Below are positions 9,888-23,934 of a stretch of 23,934 bases of DNA, piece after piece (position 1 is the stretch's first letter; each line of letters starts with the position of its first letter). The translations under genes and the position numbers were made by a program. This DNA comes from Candidatus Agrococcus pullicola (GTDB lineage: Bacteria > Actinomycetota > Actinomycetes > Actinomycetales > Microbacteriaceae), in NCBI GenBank assembly GCA_019115685.1, contig DXDC01000002.1, positions 1 to 23,934 on the forward strand, given 5' to 3'. The notes beneath the pieces were generated by a model. The model made no database searches. It was not told where the DNA came from and saw nothing but the letters and a program-made list of their open reading frames with translations.

Positions 9888-11075
9888 TCAGGCAGCCGCG
9901 ATGGCCTGCGCGAGGTCAGCGATCAGGTCATCGGGGTGCTCGAGTCCGATGGAGATCCGCAGAACTCCTGTGTTCGGCTTCGCCTCCGCCGCTGCGGGGC
10001 GGTGCGTCAGGGATGCGGGATGCTGCAGCAGGCTGTCCACGCCGCCGAGCGAAACCGCGTGCGTGAAGATCTTCGCTGCAGCGGCGACCGCTTCGGCGCG
10101 CTCGTAGGTGCCGACGTCGATCGCCATCATGGCTCCGGGCCCCGCCATCTGCGTACCGACCAGCCCCTCGGGATCGCAATCCGGCAGCCCGGGATACATG
10201 ACGCGCTCGATGCCGGGCATCCCTTGCAGTGCCTCCGCGACCGCCTGCGCGTTCGACTGCTGCTGGTGCACCCGCAGCGGCAGTGTTGCCAGCCCGCGGT
10301 GCGAGAGGTAGGAGGCGAGCGGATGCGCGATCGCGCCCGTCAGCGAGCGCACGTGTCGGATGCGCCGTGCCCAGTCGTTGTCGCAGGCGACGATGCCGCC
10401 GAGCACGTCGCCGTGGCCGCCGATGTATTTCGTCGCGGAGTGCACTGCGAACTGCGCGCCGTGCCGCAGCGGTTGCTGCAGAACCGGAGTCGCGAACGTG
10501 TTGTCGACCATGAGCGGAACGTCGCCCGCCGCGGTGGCCAGAGTATCCAGGTTCGTCAACTCCACGGTCGGATTCGCCGGCGTCTCAGCGATGACGAGCC
10601 CTGTTTGATCCGTAACCGCTGCGGGAATCTCGTCGACACGGTCAACGAACGTGACCTCGGTTGCGAGCGTGCCCGCCGACAAGATCGACTCCGTTCCGCC
10701 GTAGATGGTGCGCAGCACGACGATGTGGCGGCGCCCGTCCCCGGCCGCCGCAAGGATCACGGAGGAGATCGCCGCCATACCCGACGAGAACGCGACAGAG
10801 GCTTCGGCTCCCTCGAGCTCCGCGAGGGCTTCCTCGTACCGTGCGGTCGTGGGATTCCAGAGTCGTTGATACACCGGTGACGCGTTCTGTTCGATCTCTC
10901 CGCCCGCTGCGAGCCGCCCGTATGATCGGCCACCGCTGTCGATATCGGTCAGCGGATTCGTCGTCGAAAGGTCGATCGGCAACGCGTGCACACCGAGCGC
11001 TTCGAGGTCGGCGCGGCCCGCGTGCACAGCACGGGTCTCGAGGTGCAGGTGGGCCTGTGTGTCGGAGTCCGTCAT
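9888..11075 (-). CDS. PLP-dependent trans-sulfuration family enzyme (cystathionine gamma-lyase / methionine gamma-lyase-like)
   Basis: 395 residues, the normal length for the Cys/Met metabolism PLP family. These enzymes cleave or form C-S bonds in cystathionine, homocysteine, methionine or O-acylhomoserine. Visible features: the substrate loop YGRLAAGGEIEQNASPVYQR, the cofactor-binding segment FSSGMAAISSVILAA, the aspartate region PLMVDNTFATP, and the PLP lysine Lys216 in HSATKYIGGHGD. The C-terminal domain has SLGGVDSLLQHPASLTHR. Sequence alone does not separate lyase from synthase. ATG 11075 has GAAGG directly adjacent, too close to act as a ribosome site, so it may be leaderless. The gene fits the sulfur theme of the rhodanese and YeeE genes but is not in their operon. 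Confidence 0.9.
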   Translation of the reverse strand: MTDSDTQAHLHLETRAVHAGRADLEALGVHALPIDLSTTNPLTDIDSGGRSYGRLAAGGEIEQNASPVYQRLWNPTTARYEEALAELEGAEASVAFSSGMAAISSVILAAAGDGRRHIVVLRTIYGGTESILSAGTLATEVTFVDRVDEIPAAVTDQTGLVIAETPANPTVELTNLDTLATAAGDVPLMVDNTFATPVLQQPLRHGAQFAVHSATKYIGGHGDVLGGIVACDNDWARRIRHVRSLTGAIAHPLASYLSHRGLATLPLRVHQQQSNAQAVAEALQGMPGIERVMYPGLPDCDPEGLVGTQMAGPGAMMAIDVGTYERAEAVAAAAKIFTHAVSLGGVDSLLQHPASLTHRPAAAEAKPNTGVLRISIGLEHPDDLIADLAQAIAAA

Positions 11076-21135: not shown

Positions 21136-21606
21136 TTACGTTCTGCGTCTGGTGAAGAACGCACGCAGCTGTTCCGCGCACTCCTGCTCGAGCACACCAC
21201 CCACGACTTCGACCCTGTGGGGCAGCCGTCTATCGCGAAGCAGATCGACAACCGACCCGGCCGCGCCCGCCTTCTCGTCCCAGGCACCGAACACGACGCG
21301 CCCCAGACGTGACTGCGCGATAGCTCCCGCGCACATCGGGCACGGCTCGAGCGTCACCACCAGCGTGCAGGCGTCGAGGTGCCAGTCCTCGCGCATCCGA
21401 GCCGCACTCCTCATCGCCACGAGCTCCGCATGGCCGGTCGGATCGCTACGCAACTCACGGACGTTCGCCCCTGACGCGATTTCGATACCCGATTCGTCCA
21501 GCAGCACCGCGCCGACGGGAACGTCTTGCGGATCCCGCTCCGCAGCGAGGCGCGCGAGAGCCATCGCACGGCGCATGTGCGTTTCATACGCGGGATCGAC
21601 TCGCAT
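21136..21606 (-). CDS. tadA: tRNA-specific adenosine deaminase
   Basis: 156 residues. It converts adenosine to inosine at the wobble position (A34) of tRNA-Arg(ACG). The zinc deaminase motifs are complete: TGHAELVAM with His59 and catalytic Glu61, and TLEPCPMCAGAIAQSRLGRV with Cys89 and Cys92. The dimer-forming segment VVFGAWDEKAGAAGSVVDLL follows. ATG 21606 is preceded by GAGAGGAGC. It is divergent from upp across 200 bp, which hold the upp promoter and nothing else I can name. Confidence 0.94.
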   Translation of the reverse strand: MRVDPAYETHMRRAMALARLAAERDPQDVPVGAVLLDESGIEIASGANVRELRSDPTGHAELVAMRSAARMREDWHLDACTLVVTLEPCPMCAGAIAQSRLGRVVFGAWDEKAGAAGSVVDLLRDRRLPHRVEVVGGVLEQECAEQLRAFFTRRRT

Positions 21607-21769
21607 GCTCAGCTCCTCTCGCTACGGTTCCTTTACGGCGCGGCAGCCTCACTACGCCGGAGGGACGCTGTTCCCGTGCATTCGACCTTACTTACTGCGA
21701 ACGCTTTGTCGCAGTTCTACGGCCCTCACCCGATGACAACAGCATGCGTGCACCGTTCTATTCGGTTCT

Positions 21770-21800
21770 CTGACAATCGGAGGATCGCGCGCGGTAAATT
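21770..21800 (+). promoter_or_regulatory. Promoter of upp
   Basis: CTGACA (21770-21775) and TAAATT (21795-21800) are spaced 19 bp apart. The -10 ends 6 bp before ATG 21807, so the transcript is probably leaderless. Confidence 0.55.
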
Positions 21801-21806
21801 GAACGT

Positions 21807-22445
21807 ATGCGAGTCCACGTAGCCGACCATCCGCTCATTACGCACAAGCTCACGGTGCTACGGGACGAACGCACACCGTCGCCGACGTTCCGCGCACTCG
21901 TGTCGGAGCTCATGACGTTGCTGGCGTACGAAGCGACCCGCGAGGTCAAAGTCGCGCCGAAGGAGATCAGGACACCGGTCACCGCAACGACCGGTGTTGC
22001 GATCGCGGAGCCCCGCCCGCTCGTCGTGCCCATTCTGCGCGCAGGGCTCGGGATGCTGGACGGGATGACCGCGCTGGTACCGACCGCGGAAGTCGGCTTT
22101 CTCGGTATGGCCCGAAACGAAGCGACGCTCGAACCATACACGTATGCGGAGCGCCTCCCCGATGACCTGCGTGACCGGCAATGTTTCGTGCTCGACCCGA
22201 TGCTCGCGACCGGCGGGTCACTCGCGGCAGCCGTGCAGTATCTGTTCGACCGAGGCGCAGTGGATGTCACTGCTGTCTGCATCCTTGGAACACCGGAAGG
22301 CGTCGAACGCATGGAACGCGACTTCGGCGACAACGACAGCCTCAAGATCGTGCTCGGCGCGCTTGACGAGCGTCTCGACGAGCGCGGGTTCATCGTTCCC
22401 GGGCTGGGGGATGCCGGCGACAGGCTCTACGGCACGGCTGAGTGA
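21807..22445 (+). CDS. upp: Uracil phosphoribosyltransferase
   Basis: 212 residues. It is a pyrimidine salvage enzyme that makes UMP from uracil and PRPP in the cytoplasm. Visible motifs: [19 protein letters not shown] at the N-terminus, [13 protein letters not shown], the PRPP-binding [15 protein letters not shown] (residues 128-142) and the uracil-binding C-terminal end [17 protein letters not shown]. It has the full family length, starts at the leaderless ATG and is monocistronic, with no clear terminator hairpin right after it. Confidence 0.96.
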
Positions 22446-22764
22446 CGCGGCTCGGCATGACGCGATTCCCTGAGCGAGATCCACTCCACTGGACCGTTCT
22501 CCGGTTCGCCACTCGCACCCAGCGTCAACGCCGTCTCGGCCGAGCAGTGGCATTCGTGTTCTGAGAAGCGGCACAATTCGCAAAACGTACCGAAACACGG
22601 CATTATTTACCGCTTCTCGAGCGCAGCGCCGTCTCTCGATGTCCACGCCCGTCGCGATGCGCGGATGCTGCACCCGGCTCCGACTCACCAGCGATCTGAC
22701 GCAGCCTGGCCGAGCGAGCGCCTGCATGACGGCGCGTGCACGACACGCTCTTTCGCTCGAGAAC
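22446..22764 (+). other. Intergenic region without a supported gene
   Basis: About 320 bp after upp. Frames open on either strand have Arg/Ser-rich, non-coding character and no ribosome site, and I see no family resemblance. It may be decayed sequence or a long 3' region of upp. Confidence 0.4.
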
Positions 22765-22794
22765 TTGACTCGGCTGTGAAAGCTGCCATATCTT
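22765..22794 (+). promoter_or_regulatory. Sigma-70-type promoter of the micropeptide unit
   Basis: TTGACT (22765-22770), an 18-bp spacer and TATCTT (22789-22794). This is the best promoter match I found by eye in the window. The start site would be at or next to 22802, the A of the ATG, giving a leaderless mRNA. Confidence 0.65.
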
Positions 22795-22801
22795 GTTCGA
22801 C

Positions 22802-22897
22802 ATGACGAACATCAAGCAGCCCGCGACCGCCTCCGTCGCCAAGGGACTCAACGGCATGATGATGCCGATGTTCGCCATGTGCCGAATGTGCATGTAG
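22802..22897 (+). CDS. 31-residue Met/Cys-rich micropeptide
   Basis: The first 18 residues are ordinary and Ala/Lys-containing (TNIKQPATASVAKGLNG after the initial Met). The last 13 are MMMPMFAMCRMCM, so the peptide has eight Met and two Cys, the cysteines forming CXXC. The ATG is at the expected start site of a clear promoter, a hairpin covers the last codon and stop, and an intrinsic terminator follows 26 bp after the stop. Both ends of a transcription unit therefore fit this short frame. I do not recognise the sequence. It could be a leader peptide whose translation senses methionine/cysteine supply, a Cu(I)- or other soft-metal-binding peptide, or a small membrane-associated peptide. The next gene, a winged-helix regulator, starts 121 bp downstream. 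Confidence 0.6.
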   Translation: MTNIKQPATASVAKGLNGMMMPMFAMCRMCM

Positions 22898-22921
22898 TCA
22901 CCCCTCTTCGACCACTACATG
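22891..22921 (+). other. Hairpin across the micropeptide stop codon
   Basis: A perfect 8-bp stem, CATGTAGT (22891-22898) with ACTACATG (22914-22921), and a 15-nt loop. The 5' arm holds the last Met codon and the TAG stop, so a terminating or stalled ribosome would keep it open. It ends one base before the terminator stem and could stack on it. Confidence 0.6.
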
Positions 22922-22922
22922 C

Positions 22923-22950
22923 AACCGGCGGATCCCCGCCGGTTTTCTAT
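22923..22950 (+). terminator. Intrinsic terminator after the micropeptide
   Basis: A 9-bp stem, AACCGGCGG (22923-22931) with CCGCCGGTT (22936-22944), and a 4-nt loop, followed by TTCTATTTCTC. It lies before the winged-helix gene, so that gene needs read-through or its own promoter; no convincing promoter is seen in 22951-23018. Confidence 0.85.
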
Positions 22951-23018
22951 TTCTCAAGAACACTCATTTAGCAGCCGCCGTCGAGCACAGCTCCGGCGCG
23001 CTTTGGAAGGCACACACC

Positions 23019-23711
23019 ATGGCTATCGCACTCACGGACATTCGACCGCACATCTCCGACGCCCCCGCGGCACCGCATCCCGTCTCTCCCTCCCGTTCGC
23101 ACATCCGCGCGGTCCCCGCCGAGCCGGAGGCCCGTGGCTTCGTGCTCTACGTGGGTCTCGGTGAGGAGAGCCAGGAGCTGGACGGCATCGACCTCGCCAC
23201 ACTGGTGCGCGAACTGCGCGAACTCACCGGTCGGCTCTCGCCGTCCGCGCAGACGCACGCTGCTGTGGCGCTCGCTCCAGCTGACGCCGGCGGCCGCGAC
23301 ATCGATGTGGTTCGACGCGCACTGCAGGACCCTTCACTGCGCACGCCCGAACCGGAAGACGAGCCGGAGACCGACCTGGGAGTCACGATCGACTTCGGTC
23401 GCAATCGCGTCGCGATCGATGGCGAGCAAGCAACACTCACCTACAAGGAGTTCGAGCTGCTGCAGTCCATCGTGCTGCGCACGGGACGCGCGGTCGAGCG
23501 GCAGGAGCTGATCGACATCGTGTGGAGGGACACGGATGCAGCAGAGCGCCCCAACGCTCGTACGGTTGACGTGCACATCCGTCGCCTCCGTGCGAAGCTC
23601 GGCGACTACGCCGACATTATTCGCACCGTGCGCGGGTCCGGTTACCGCTACGACGGGCGCTCGGATGTGCGAATCGTTTCGAGCCTCACACGCAGCCCAG
23701 ACATCTTCTAG
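23019..23711 (+). CDS. Winged-helix DNA-binding protein (OmpR/PhoB-type) without receiver domain
   Basis: 230 residues from ATG 23019, with GGAAGG upstream. Residues about 121-212 form an OmpR-type trans_reg_C domain: VTIDFGRNRVAIDGEQATLT, then the helix TYKEFELLQSIVLRTGRAV, RQELIDIVWR, the recognition helix NARTVDVHIRRLRAKLGDY and the wing TVRGSGYRYD. The N-terminal 110 residues are not a response-regulator receiver, as no phospho-acceptor Asp pattern is seen. They have a Pro/Ala/His-rich start, then a short alpha/beta part (FVLYVGLGEESQELDGIDLA, LVRELRELTGRL). The signal and target are unknown. Its position right after the micropeptide terminator suggests that unit might control it. Confidence 0.87.
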   Translation: MAIALTDIRPHISDAPAAPHPVSPSRSHIRAVPAEPEARGFVLYVGLGEESQELDGIDLATLVRELRELTGRLSPSAQTHAAVALAPADAGGRDIDVVRRALQDPSLRTPEPEDEPETDLGVTIDFGRNRVAIDGEQATLTYKEFELLQSIVLRTGRAVERQELIDIVWRDTDAAERPNARTVDVHIRRLRAKLGDYADIIRTVRGSGYRYDGRSDVRIVSSLTRSPDIF

Positions 23712-23789
23712 CTCGGCCGCGACGGCTCTAATAGCTGACTCATAGCGTTCGTGGGGCTGATTCCAGGTTTGCGTTCCTAATCTTTAATC

Positions 23790-23889
23790 ACGCTGAAAGT
23801 TGTGCTGTGGCTTTCAGCGAAAGCTGACTTCTGAGAATCAGCTTGGTGCAAGGGACAGAAAAACCCCCGGCGTTCTGCCGGGGGTTTTT
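23790..23889 (+). ncRNA. Candidate small RNA with three hairpins
   Basis: Three adjacent stems: CGCTGAAAG with CTTTCAGCG (23791-23799 and 23811-23819); AAGCTGA with TCAGCTT (23821-23827 and 23838-23844); and the terminator stem ending in TTTTT at 23889. A -10-like TAATCT (23778-23783) would start transcription near 23790, but the -35 is weak. It may instead be only the long 3' end of the winged-helix gene. I recognise no known RNA family. Confidence 0.3.
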
Positions 23890-23904
23890 CGCGTCCCTTG
23901 CACC
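23845..23904. terminator. Long two-part terminator hairpin
   Basis: The outer stem GGTGCAAGGGAC (23845-23856) pairs with GTCCCTTGCACC (23893-23904). After a small internal loop, the inner 13-bp stem AAAAACCCCCGGC pairs with GCCGGGGGTTTTT (23859-23871 and 23877-23889) around a 5-nt loop. A runs on one side and T runs on the other make it usable in both directions, so a convergent gene probably lies beyond the right edge. Confidence 0.88.
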
Positions 23905-23934
23905 CTTGGGCAAGCGCGTTCGGCTCCAAAGCAA

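Follow-up and report, generated by a model that had tools for sequence, protein, structure and literature searches.

A leaderless micropeptide gene of 31 codons from Candidatus Agrococcus pullicola is probably the leader of an attenuator that senses methionine and cysteine and controls a previously undescribed sulfur regulator, a reading that is put forward here with restrained confidence. The gene lies near the end of the window, by which the whole analysed stretch of 23,934 nucleotides (contig DXDC01000002.1, forward strand) is meant. Six observations carry this reading: the frame is conserved, it occupies a fixed position before a gene for a winged-helix protein, it uses rare codons, it is enriched in Met and Cys, it is followed by a covarying hairpin (H2 below), and in sister Agrococcus species the leader shares a direct repeat with the upstream regions of methionine and monooxygenase genes.

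In the window, the promoter found by motif scan on the plus strand (22765–22794) consists of a −35 hexamer TTGACT (22765–22770), an 18-bp spacer and a −10 hexamer TATCTT (22789–22794); it is sigma-70-like and matches the consensus at 9 of 12 positions. The ATG of the upstream open reading frame (uORF) is at 22802, 7 nt 3' of the −10 hexamer, which is the expected transcription start. The leaderless frame (22802–22897, plus strand) has 31 codons, reads MTNIKQPATASVAKGLNGMMMPMFAMCRMCM and closes with a TAG stop at 22895–22897, while its peptide contains eight Met and a CRMC motif and has the C-terminal end MMMPMFAMCRMCM. Codons 19–22 (22856–22867) form an MMMP block that is near-invariant in a 33-row family alignment, and the tail codons TGC CGA ATG TGC ATG (22880–22894), encoding Cys-Arg-Met-Cys-Met, include CGA-ATG, the most widely kept element of all. 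Further downstream, a terminator-like stem at 22923–22944 is followed by TTCTATTTCT, and stem and U-rich tail together form a predicted intrinsic terminator (22923–22954, plus strand). The initial annotation had described the same promoter, start codon, 31-codon frame and terminator, and all of them were located where it had placed them. It had also held that such a close fit of the parts is unlikely by chance, which is borne out for the frame by its conservation among relatives and fails for the two flanking signals. Within the region 21500–23934, one promoter was found against a mean of 0.3 in shuffled sequences and one terminator against 1.5 expected, so that the terminator by itself is not significant and the anatomy alone is little proof; it is by its conservation that the frame can be taken as real. 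No NCBIfam model matched the uORF peptide, and Rfam gave no match at gathering score in the window or the leader, where a single lncRNA match lay far below that score (E 0.046). The window also carries a 14-nt inverted repeat of 93% complementarity (22800–22813 and 22867–22880), which would pair the start-codon region of the uORF with codons 22–27 and is partly paired in the minimum free energy (MFE) fold.

Searching with the 31-aa peptide recovered the frame in 24 of 24 Agrococcus genomes and in a single genome from another genus. Of the first 25 parsed relatives, window included, 23 have a frame of exactly 31 codons and the other two have 32 and 33. With a 14-row and then a 33-row profile at E ≤ 1e-4, the frame was found in 276 of 398 Microbacteriaceae genomes and in 67 of 85 genera, with one match per genome among the matches listed. 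An order-wide sample of 198 genomes gave 14 strong profile matches, all 14 in Microbacteriaceae, and four weaker ones (E 1e-3 to 8e-3) that were left uncounted. A genome scan returned 193 relatives, and the best 80 of the 193, which were used here, include Microbacterium, Leifsonia, Agreia, Plantibacter, Cryobacterium, Agromyces, Humibacter, Glaciihabitans and Salinibacterium. The family consensus peptide is MTxxxxxLTSxEAxGxAGMMMPxxAxMCCRMCA. The MMMP block, not the tail, was the criterion by which the best 80 of 193 were picked, which biases their Met share; each of the 80 has Arg-Met and at least one Cys within the last eight residues. As well, one relative (L249) lies in a record titled as an Acidobacteria MAG, and its peptide is identical to a Microbacteriaceae one, so the contig is probably mis-binned.

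A set of 76 loci was then defined by a parser that required CGN-ATG-TGY and a Met-Pro block, and a Cys after Arg-Met is therefore present in these loci by construction. It was applied to 84 loci, and the eight that it missed comprise four with MMMA and four with Ser or His after Arg-Met. In 63 of the 76 loci a promoter stands at leaderless distance, 5–7 nt 5' of the ATG, and in 61 of these it scores at least 7; of 1520 random positions taken from the 76 loci, 1 has such a promoter. The initial annotation had proposed to judge the frame by its conservation and by a Ka/Ks-type ratio across homologues, and it comes through both: the frame and its Met/Cys tail are kept in relatives, and among 23 Agrococcus loci (L003, differing in length, was excluded) pN/pS is 0.48 in codons 18–31 and 1.13 in codons 2–17, which indicates selection on the tail and not on the N-terminal half. 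Many leaders outside Agrococcus, such as L042, L054, L056 and L064, carry GCAAG(N)AACTTGC-type inverted repeats in the −10 region of the uORF, which could be the operator of another regulator.

Downstream of the frame and on the same strand, a winged-helix gene was present in all 76 parsed loci. In the window it spans 23019–23711 (plus strand) and encodes a regulator of 230 aa with a Trans_reg_C domain at residues 135–210 (Pfam); its Shine-Dalgarno (SD) sequence GGAAGG is at 23005–23010, and SD and start region together cover 23005–23023. The usual upstream neighbour is upp for uracil phosphoribosyltransferase (21807–22445, plus strand, Pfam/NCBIfam), found in 66 of 76 loci, some of the loci being short or at a contig end. 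The description of the frame as a stand-alone transcription unit in the initial annotation is thus unsupported, because the terminator lies within the leader of the winged-helix gene. Taken together, the position in every parsed locus, the promoter in 63 of them and the selection on the tail would fit a short frame directly upstream of its presumed target gene. It could be supposed instead that the peptide is a small protein acting in trans and that its place before the regulator is simple co-transcription, in keeping with tail amino acids that are conserved over dozens of genera. This seems extremely improbable, given that the N-terminal half is almost free to vary, that the same gene always follows in the parsed loci, that rare codons are preferred and that large sequence changes have occurred with the Cys content kept.

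The placement expected of an attenuator leader was also seen beyond the reach of the profile. Of 122 family genomes that the profile did not match, 20 were opened; the regulator is present in 19, and in 16 of these 19 it is preceded by a small frame that is Met-rich or ends in CRM, no candidate frame being found in L140, L143 and L144. Their tails include ...CSMCMCMCMCR, ...MACCRMCCC, ...MCACRMCCCC and MCSRMCS. Because the frame filter favoured Met-rich or CRM frames and did not require CGA, their Met content is partly selected and only the codons are independent evidence; 14 of the 16 contain CGA. In another family of the order, 9 of 14 regulator orthologues have a leader frame, whose tail is mostly CCRMHA or CCRMQA, with the codons TGY TGY CGA ATG and with MMM and the third Cys lost. 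No frame of this kind was found at the single regulator orthologues of two further families.

The 230-aa protein has homologues in Agrococcus and other Microbacteriaceae. Trans_reg_C is its sole Pfam domain, with no receiver domain, and its best NCBIfam models are those of PhoB, with all scores shown far below cut-off. The N-terminal part (23019–23378) is strongly conserved, with the motifs EARGFVLYVGL ... AVALAPxGAGGRDVDVVRLALQDP, and has no Pfam match; in a structure model, it is of low confidence and too poor for a fold search. This region is possibly an undescribed sensor or a degenerate receiver domain. Identity with Vatr1 of Clavibacter was considered and rejected, Vatr1 being described as a TetR protein. 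The upp, PutP and CDF transporter genes of the window gave no sulfur link by neighbourhood (Pfam/NCBIfam), and no conserved sulfur neighbour of the regulator was found when the genes of larger neighbourhoods were read by eye in six genomes. The window also encodes a PLP-dependent enzyme of Cys/Met metabolism (9888–11075, minus strand), about 12 kb from the leader.

The codons of the tail are among the clearest features of the frame. The Arg of Arg-Met is encoded by CGA in all 76 parsed loci, for which the parser allowed any CGN, and CGA-ATG is also present in the eight unparsed loci, which makes 84 of 84; among the best 80 of 193 loci, the count is 80 of 80. Elsewhere CGA is rare: in the 76 loci it accounts for 5% of Arg codons across the upp and regulator stretches (124 of 2467) and for 4 of 117 other Arg codons of the uORFs. 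Cys is written as TGT 128 times and as TGC 50 times in the uORFs of the 76 loci, compared with 8 and 142 times in upp and the regulator; for the best 80 of 193 loci, the numbers are 148 and 88. Cys makes up 9.1% of the uORFs in the best 80 of 193 loci and 0.6% of the upp and regulator stretches, and Met makes up 16.6% of the uORFs of the 76 loci. As would be expected of a sensing leader, codons for a residue presumed to be sensed lie near the stop (Cys in 80/80) and the rare codons TGT and CGA are preferred. Of the divergent or other-family frames, 23 of 25 retain CGA-ATG, the exceptions being L141 (AAA ATG) and L146 (MCMCMCMCR), and the CCRMHA and CCRMQA tails indicate that it is CGA-ATG, and not the number of Met/Cys codons, that is most widely kept.

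Two other sensing functions have to be weighed against this codon pattern. Binding of a soft metal had been offered by the initial annotation, so that the nascent or finished Met/Cys peptide would bind Cu(I) or a similar ion and alter translation or termination of the leader. Motifs such as MMM, CCRMC and MCMCMCMC suit Cu(I) by general chemistry, and a copper-responsive uORF is known in Bordetella as a precedent. The analysis itself turned up nothing in favour of this function, which we regard as very unlikely: an Arg fixed at the codon level, as CGA, is unexplained by metal binding, most other-family tails have just two adjacent Cys and one Met, and no metal gene was recognised at the opened sites of the repeat described below. 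Alternatively, the leader may be a general sensor of translation stress, in which the slow CGA-AUG step responds whenever elongation is slowed, for instance by antibiotics that target the ribosome, and the regulator is released in the manner of the whiB7/wblC uORF, with Met and Cys being secondary. That CGA-ATG is kept more widely than any Met/Cys pattern, the other-family CCRMHA and CCRMQA tails included, argues for it, and so does a presumed target that is a transcription factor, as the available description of whiB7 has it (PMC13236596). We nevertheless consider it rather unlikely, since every one of the best 80 of 193 loci keeps a Cys near the end, divergent genomes show poly-Cys or Met-Cys expansions, and the repeat considered below marks methionine and monooxygenase genes at 22 of 34 opened sites.

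An attenuator that reads Met and Cys would also need a responsive RNA after the frame. The 120 nt 3' of it contain 42% C and 26% G, with C exceeding G in 76 of 76 loci, compared with 49 of 76 for the 120 nt upstream; such C-rich, G-poor RNA would suit Rho. In the window, hairpin H1 (22889–22923, plus strand; arms 22889–22898 and 22914–22923, TGCATGTAGT/ACTACATGCA) is paired in the MFE fold, where it joins the end of the frame and the stop codon to the sequence just 5' of the terminator, and its pairing is perfect. It is kept with altered letters in L003 and is above both swaps and shuffles in Agrococcus; outside this genus, it is slightly above swaps and not above mononucleotide shuffles. A second hairpin, H2, has its 5' arm about 20 nt after the stop. 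Anchor motifs defined it in 32 of 52 distinct loci outside Agrococcus, the remainder being without the motif, and an exact 6-nt partner lies downstream in 20 of these 32, against 5.6 with free swapping and 2.6 with swapping between different arms (maximum 10 in 2000 trials). A second and partly overlapping set, 50 loci of the best 80 of 193, has the partner in 25 of 50, against 4.5 (maximum 11 in 1000 trials). The arms vary by genus (GAGTTC, GAGTCC, GAGTCG, GAACCG, GGGTCC and others), and this difference between genera amounts to covariation. Judging by its position, the terminator at 22923–22954 would be the counterpart in the window of H2 in other genera. Of 24 Agrococcus loci, only L001–L003, the three-genome clade of the window, have a T run in the leader, and of 52 other loci 4 have one; the whole leader of the window folds at a z of −3.74. 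As for a classical switch of 1:2, 2:3 and 3:4 pairings, the 2:3 alternative is slightly above swaps and 3:4, which is H2, is alone well supported, and the classical model was rejected.

A further candidate pairing joins the tail to the ribosome-binding site (RBS) of the regulator. The MFE fold of the window places the tail segment GCCATGTGCC (22874–22883, plus strand) opposite the SD and start codon of the winged-helix gene, its predicted partners being GGCACA (23009–23014) and TGGC (23020–23023), both on the plus strand. On this basis, it can be argued that an RNA or DNA sequence is selected and not its translation, with TGTCGAATG pairing with the regulator RBS or being a protein-binding site. 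Besides the fold of the window, it is consistent with this that the tail-RBS energy over all 76 loci is −7.90, against −7.07 (sd 0.18) for swaps, a difference that is smaller within groups. Likewise, the RBS is AAGGATTCGAC or similar (ATTCGAC, complementary to the uORF core) in about 10 of 76 loci, and the longest match to the uORF core in the leader has a mean of 6.0, against 5.55 (sd 0.09) in shuffled leaders. We judge this account unlikely all the same: the RBS lies on the tail with at least three expected pairs in 11 of 76 leaders, as many as with a shuffled tail (4–12), and the lower pN/pS of the tail, together with Cys kept as either TGT or TGC, points to coding. A universal helix that sequesters the RBS on the tail was rejected as well, being seen in the window and some genera and not above the shuffled-tail control. 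In five leaders of the other family (L145 and L177–L180), GGCATTCG is found about 30 nt after the uORF stop and is complementary to the uORF core CGAATGC. L003, on the reverse strand, has a perfect 27-nt inverted repeat, TTGTTGCGAATAACGCACCGGTTTGAC and its complement, 93–38 nt upstream of the uORF ATG and just 5' of the −35 hexamer.

The link from the proposed Met/Cys attenuator to sulfur comes from a direct repeat, CGTCACANTTCGTCACA, upstream of the leader promoter in most Agrococcus species. At two mismatches or fewer, it has 82 matches in 24 Agrococcus genomes, compared with 2 for the reversed control, and 18 of these matches are just upstream of the uORF, while a nineteenth may span a contig break in G022. 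Of the 64 sites away from the leader, 34 were opened, a choice that followed five genomes and the loci returned and was not random. The first 20 sites, from the five genomes, adjoin metNI (3), metQ (1), methionine-synthase-like genes (4), NtaA/DmoA-family monooxygenases (2), an FMN reductase (1), LLM monooxygenases (2) and a protein of about 355 aa without a Pfam match (3), and the other four are at a SOR/SNZ-family gene, a class-II glutamine amidotransferase, a DUF4395 gene and a 2OG-Fe oxygenase. The next 14, from other genomes, include 6 at the listed gene types, namely metN (2), metQ (1), methionine-synthase-like (1), NtaA/DmoA-like (1, 47% identity) and the ~355-aa protein (1), and eight at other or unclear genes. 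The totals over the 34 sites are 5 for metN/metI, 2 for metQ, 5 for methionine-synthase-like genes, 3 for the NtaA/DmoA type, 2 for LLM, 1 for FMN reductase and 4 for the ~355-aa protein. Sorted after the genes had been seen, 22 of 34 sites are of sulfur type by a loose count and 15 of 34 by a strict one (met and NtaA/DmoA-type genes only), whereas 12 of 34 adjoin unrelated or unclear genes; that the same genes recur from species to species is a stronger point than this sorted count. No antibiotic-resistance gene was recognised at the opened sites, which speaks against a general translation-stress sensor; in L226, an ABC transporter gene resembling drug-export ATPases lies behind the gene that adjoins the repeat site. 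In four Agrococcus genomes (L227:2057–3121, L218:2063–3097, L226:916–1959 on the minus strand, and L199:1557–2519), the CGTCAC repeat lies at the start of the ~355-aa protein, which has no Pfam or NCBIfam match and adjoins metNI in one of them.

The clade of the window departs from this picture. In G000, G015 and G012, there is none at the leader and none before the metN or methionine-synthase-like genes that were looked at, and the window's own genome (G000) has no match at all. G012 and G015 have four matches elsewhere, and none of the three opened is at such a gene; the two-mismatch repeat at L210:1501–1517 in G012 is flanked by the genes for an SDF-family symporter and for a member of the TauE/SafE family, the sulfite exporter family. 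In 12 genomes of three other genera, a related composite pattern is present at the regulator's own promoter in 8, with one recurrent site inside coding sequence in one genus and scattered matches elsewhere; its 11 non-promoter matches compare with 5 in the control. Since this pattern is essentially one of the regulator promoter, support for the regulon comes from the sister Agrococcus species only, and a regulon in the window's clade and the three other genera was tested without support. The presumed target of the leader is accordingly a regulator and not an enzyme, with the repeat at methionine and monooxygenase genes in sister species and missing in the clade of the window. The winged-helix protein would itself bind the CGTCAC repeat, as suggested by its PhoB-like domain and by the repeat beside its own promoter. 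Sulfur amino acid sensing by translation, the other function offered by the initial annotation, is in part upheld: it is favoured by the rare codons used for Cys and Arg, by expansions of Met/Cys in divergent lineages, by the covarying hairpin and by the sister-species repeat at methionine and sulfur-type genes, and the missing repeat in the window's own clade counts against it.

These features can be assembled into a mechanism in which the supply of Met and Cys would be the signal. As the transcript is expected to start at or next to the ATG, ribosomes would load without a leader and translate the frame, whose tail confronts them with many Met and Cys codons and with two rare codons, UGU and CGA. 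As long as charged Met-tRNA and Cys-tRNA abound, the ribosome would reach the stop, H1 and then H2, the latter in the window being the intrinsic terminator, would fold, and little regulator would be made. When sulfur amino acids are short, the ribosome would stall on the tail, the fold would change, and the regulator would be produced. It would then act, in a direction that we infer, on genes of methionine uptake and synthesis and on sulfur-scavenging monooxygenases via the CGTCAC direct repeats; which RNA switch is used is likewise a matter of proposal, H2 being the candidate assumed here. In its boldest form, this would mean an undescribed, family-wide master regulator of sulfur acquisition, under a leaderless peptide that reads Met and Cys together and has an obligatory slow CGA-AUG step as a ribosome brake, that is, a two-amino-acid attenuator on a transcription factor and not on a biosynthetic operon. 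This fuller picture is offered tentatively, as a serious possibility that falls somewhat short of probable.

The analysis offers a testable function for a regulator that was found even in 19 of 20 family genomes without a match to the peptide profile, and for a micropeptide gene of a length that gene callers tend to skip. If the proposal is true, attenuation in Actinobacteria would extend from biosynthetic operons and the antibiotic response to a sulfur regulator, and the leader would be a compact case in which a rare Arg codon, and not the sensed amino acid alone, is fixed across dozens of genera.

Among the matches listed in the open-licence literature, no description of the leader or regulator was found by title or start of the abstract. 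The regulator resembles PhoB/OmpR response regulators in its winged-helix DNA-binding domain and in its best NCBIfam models, PhoB, and domains of this type bind direct-repeat operators; it differs from them in that Pfam finds no receiver domain and the NCBIfam scores are far below cut-off. Cysteine-responsive attenuation in mycobacteria was reportedly described by Canestrari et al. in 2020. Cysteine-rich leaderless uORFs have been reported in mycobacteria (Shell et al. 2015, PMC4633059), and, as far as the accessible part of that report goes, the present leader is like them in belonging to Actinobacteria and in having a leaderless small frame, C-terminal Cys codons and a gene downstream on the same transcript, while it is unlike them in also using Met, in its fixed CGA-ATG and in having a transcription factor, not a cysteine operon, as its target. 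Candidate cys leader peptides have also been proposed for Mycobacterium, Propionibacterium and Bifidobacterium (Seliverstov et al. 2005, PMC1262725); in the portion of that paper available, they share with the present leader Cys codons near the stop, no conserved terminator hairpin and a possible Rho-binding region after the frame, whereas they precede cys or cbs genes and have Cys runs, with no Met block mentioned there. A run of consecutive C-terminal Cys codons is not what the window has, where two Cys are split by RM; most relatives have CC-RM-C, and longer Cys runs occur in a few divergent genomes only, so the leader is not a strict polycysteine attenuator. WhiB7 is an iron-sulfur WhiB protein. 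Its whiB7/wblC attenuator, as the available part of its description presents it, likewise has its uORF within the leader of a transcription-factor gene and so couples the level of the regulator to the state of translation; whiB7 answers ribosome-targeting drugs (PMC13236596), whereas the present leader would set the level of a PhoB-like winged-helix protein with a probable sulfur regulon.
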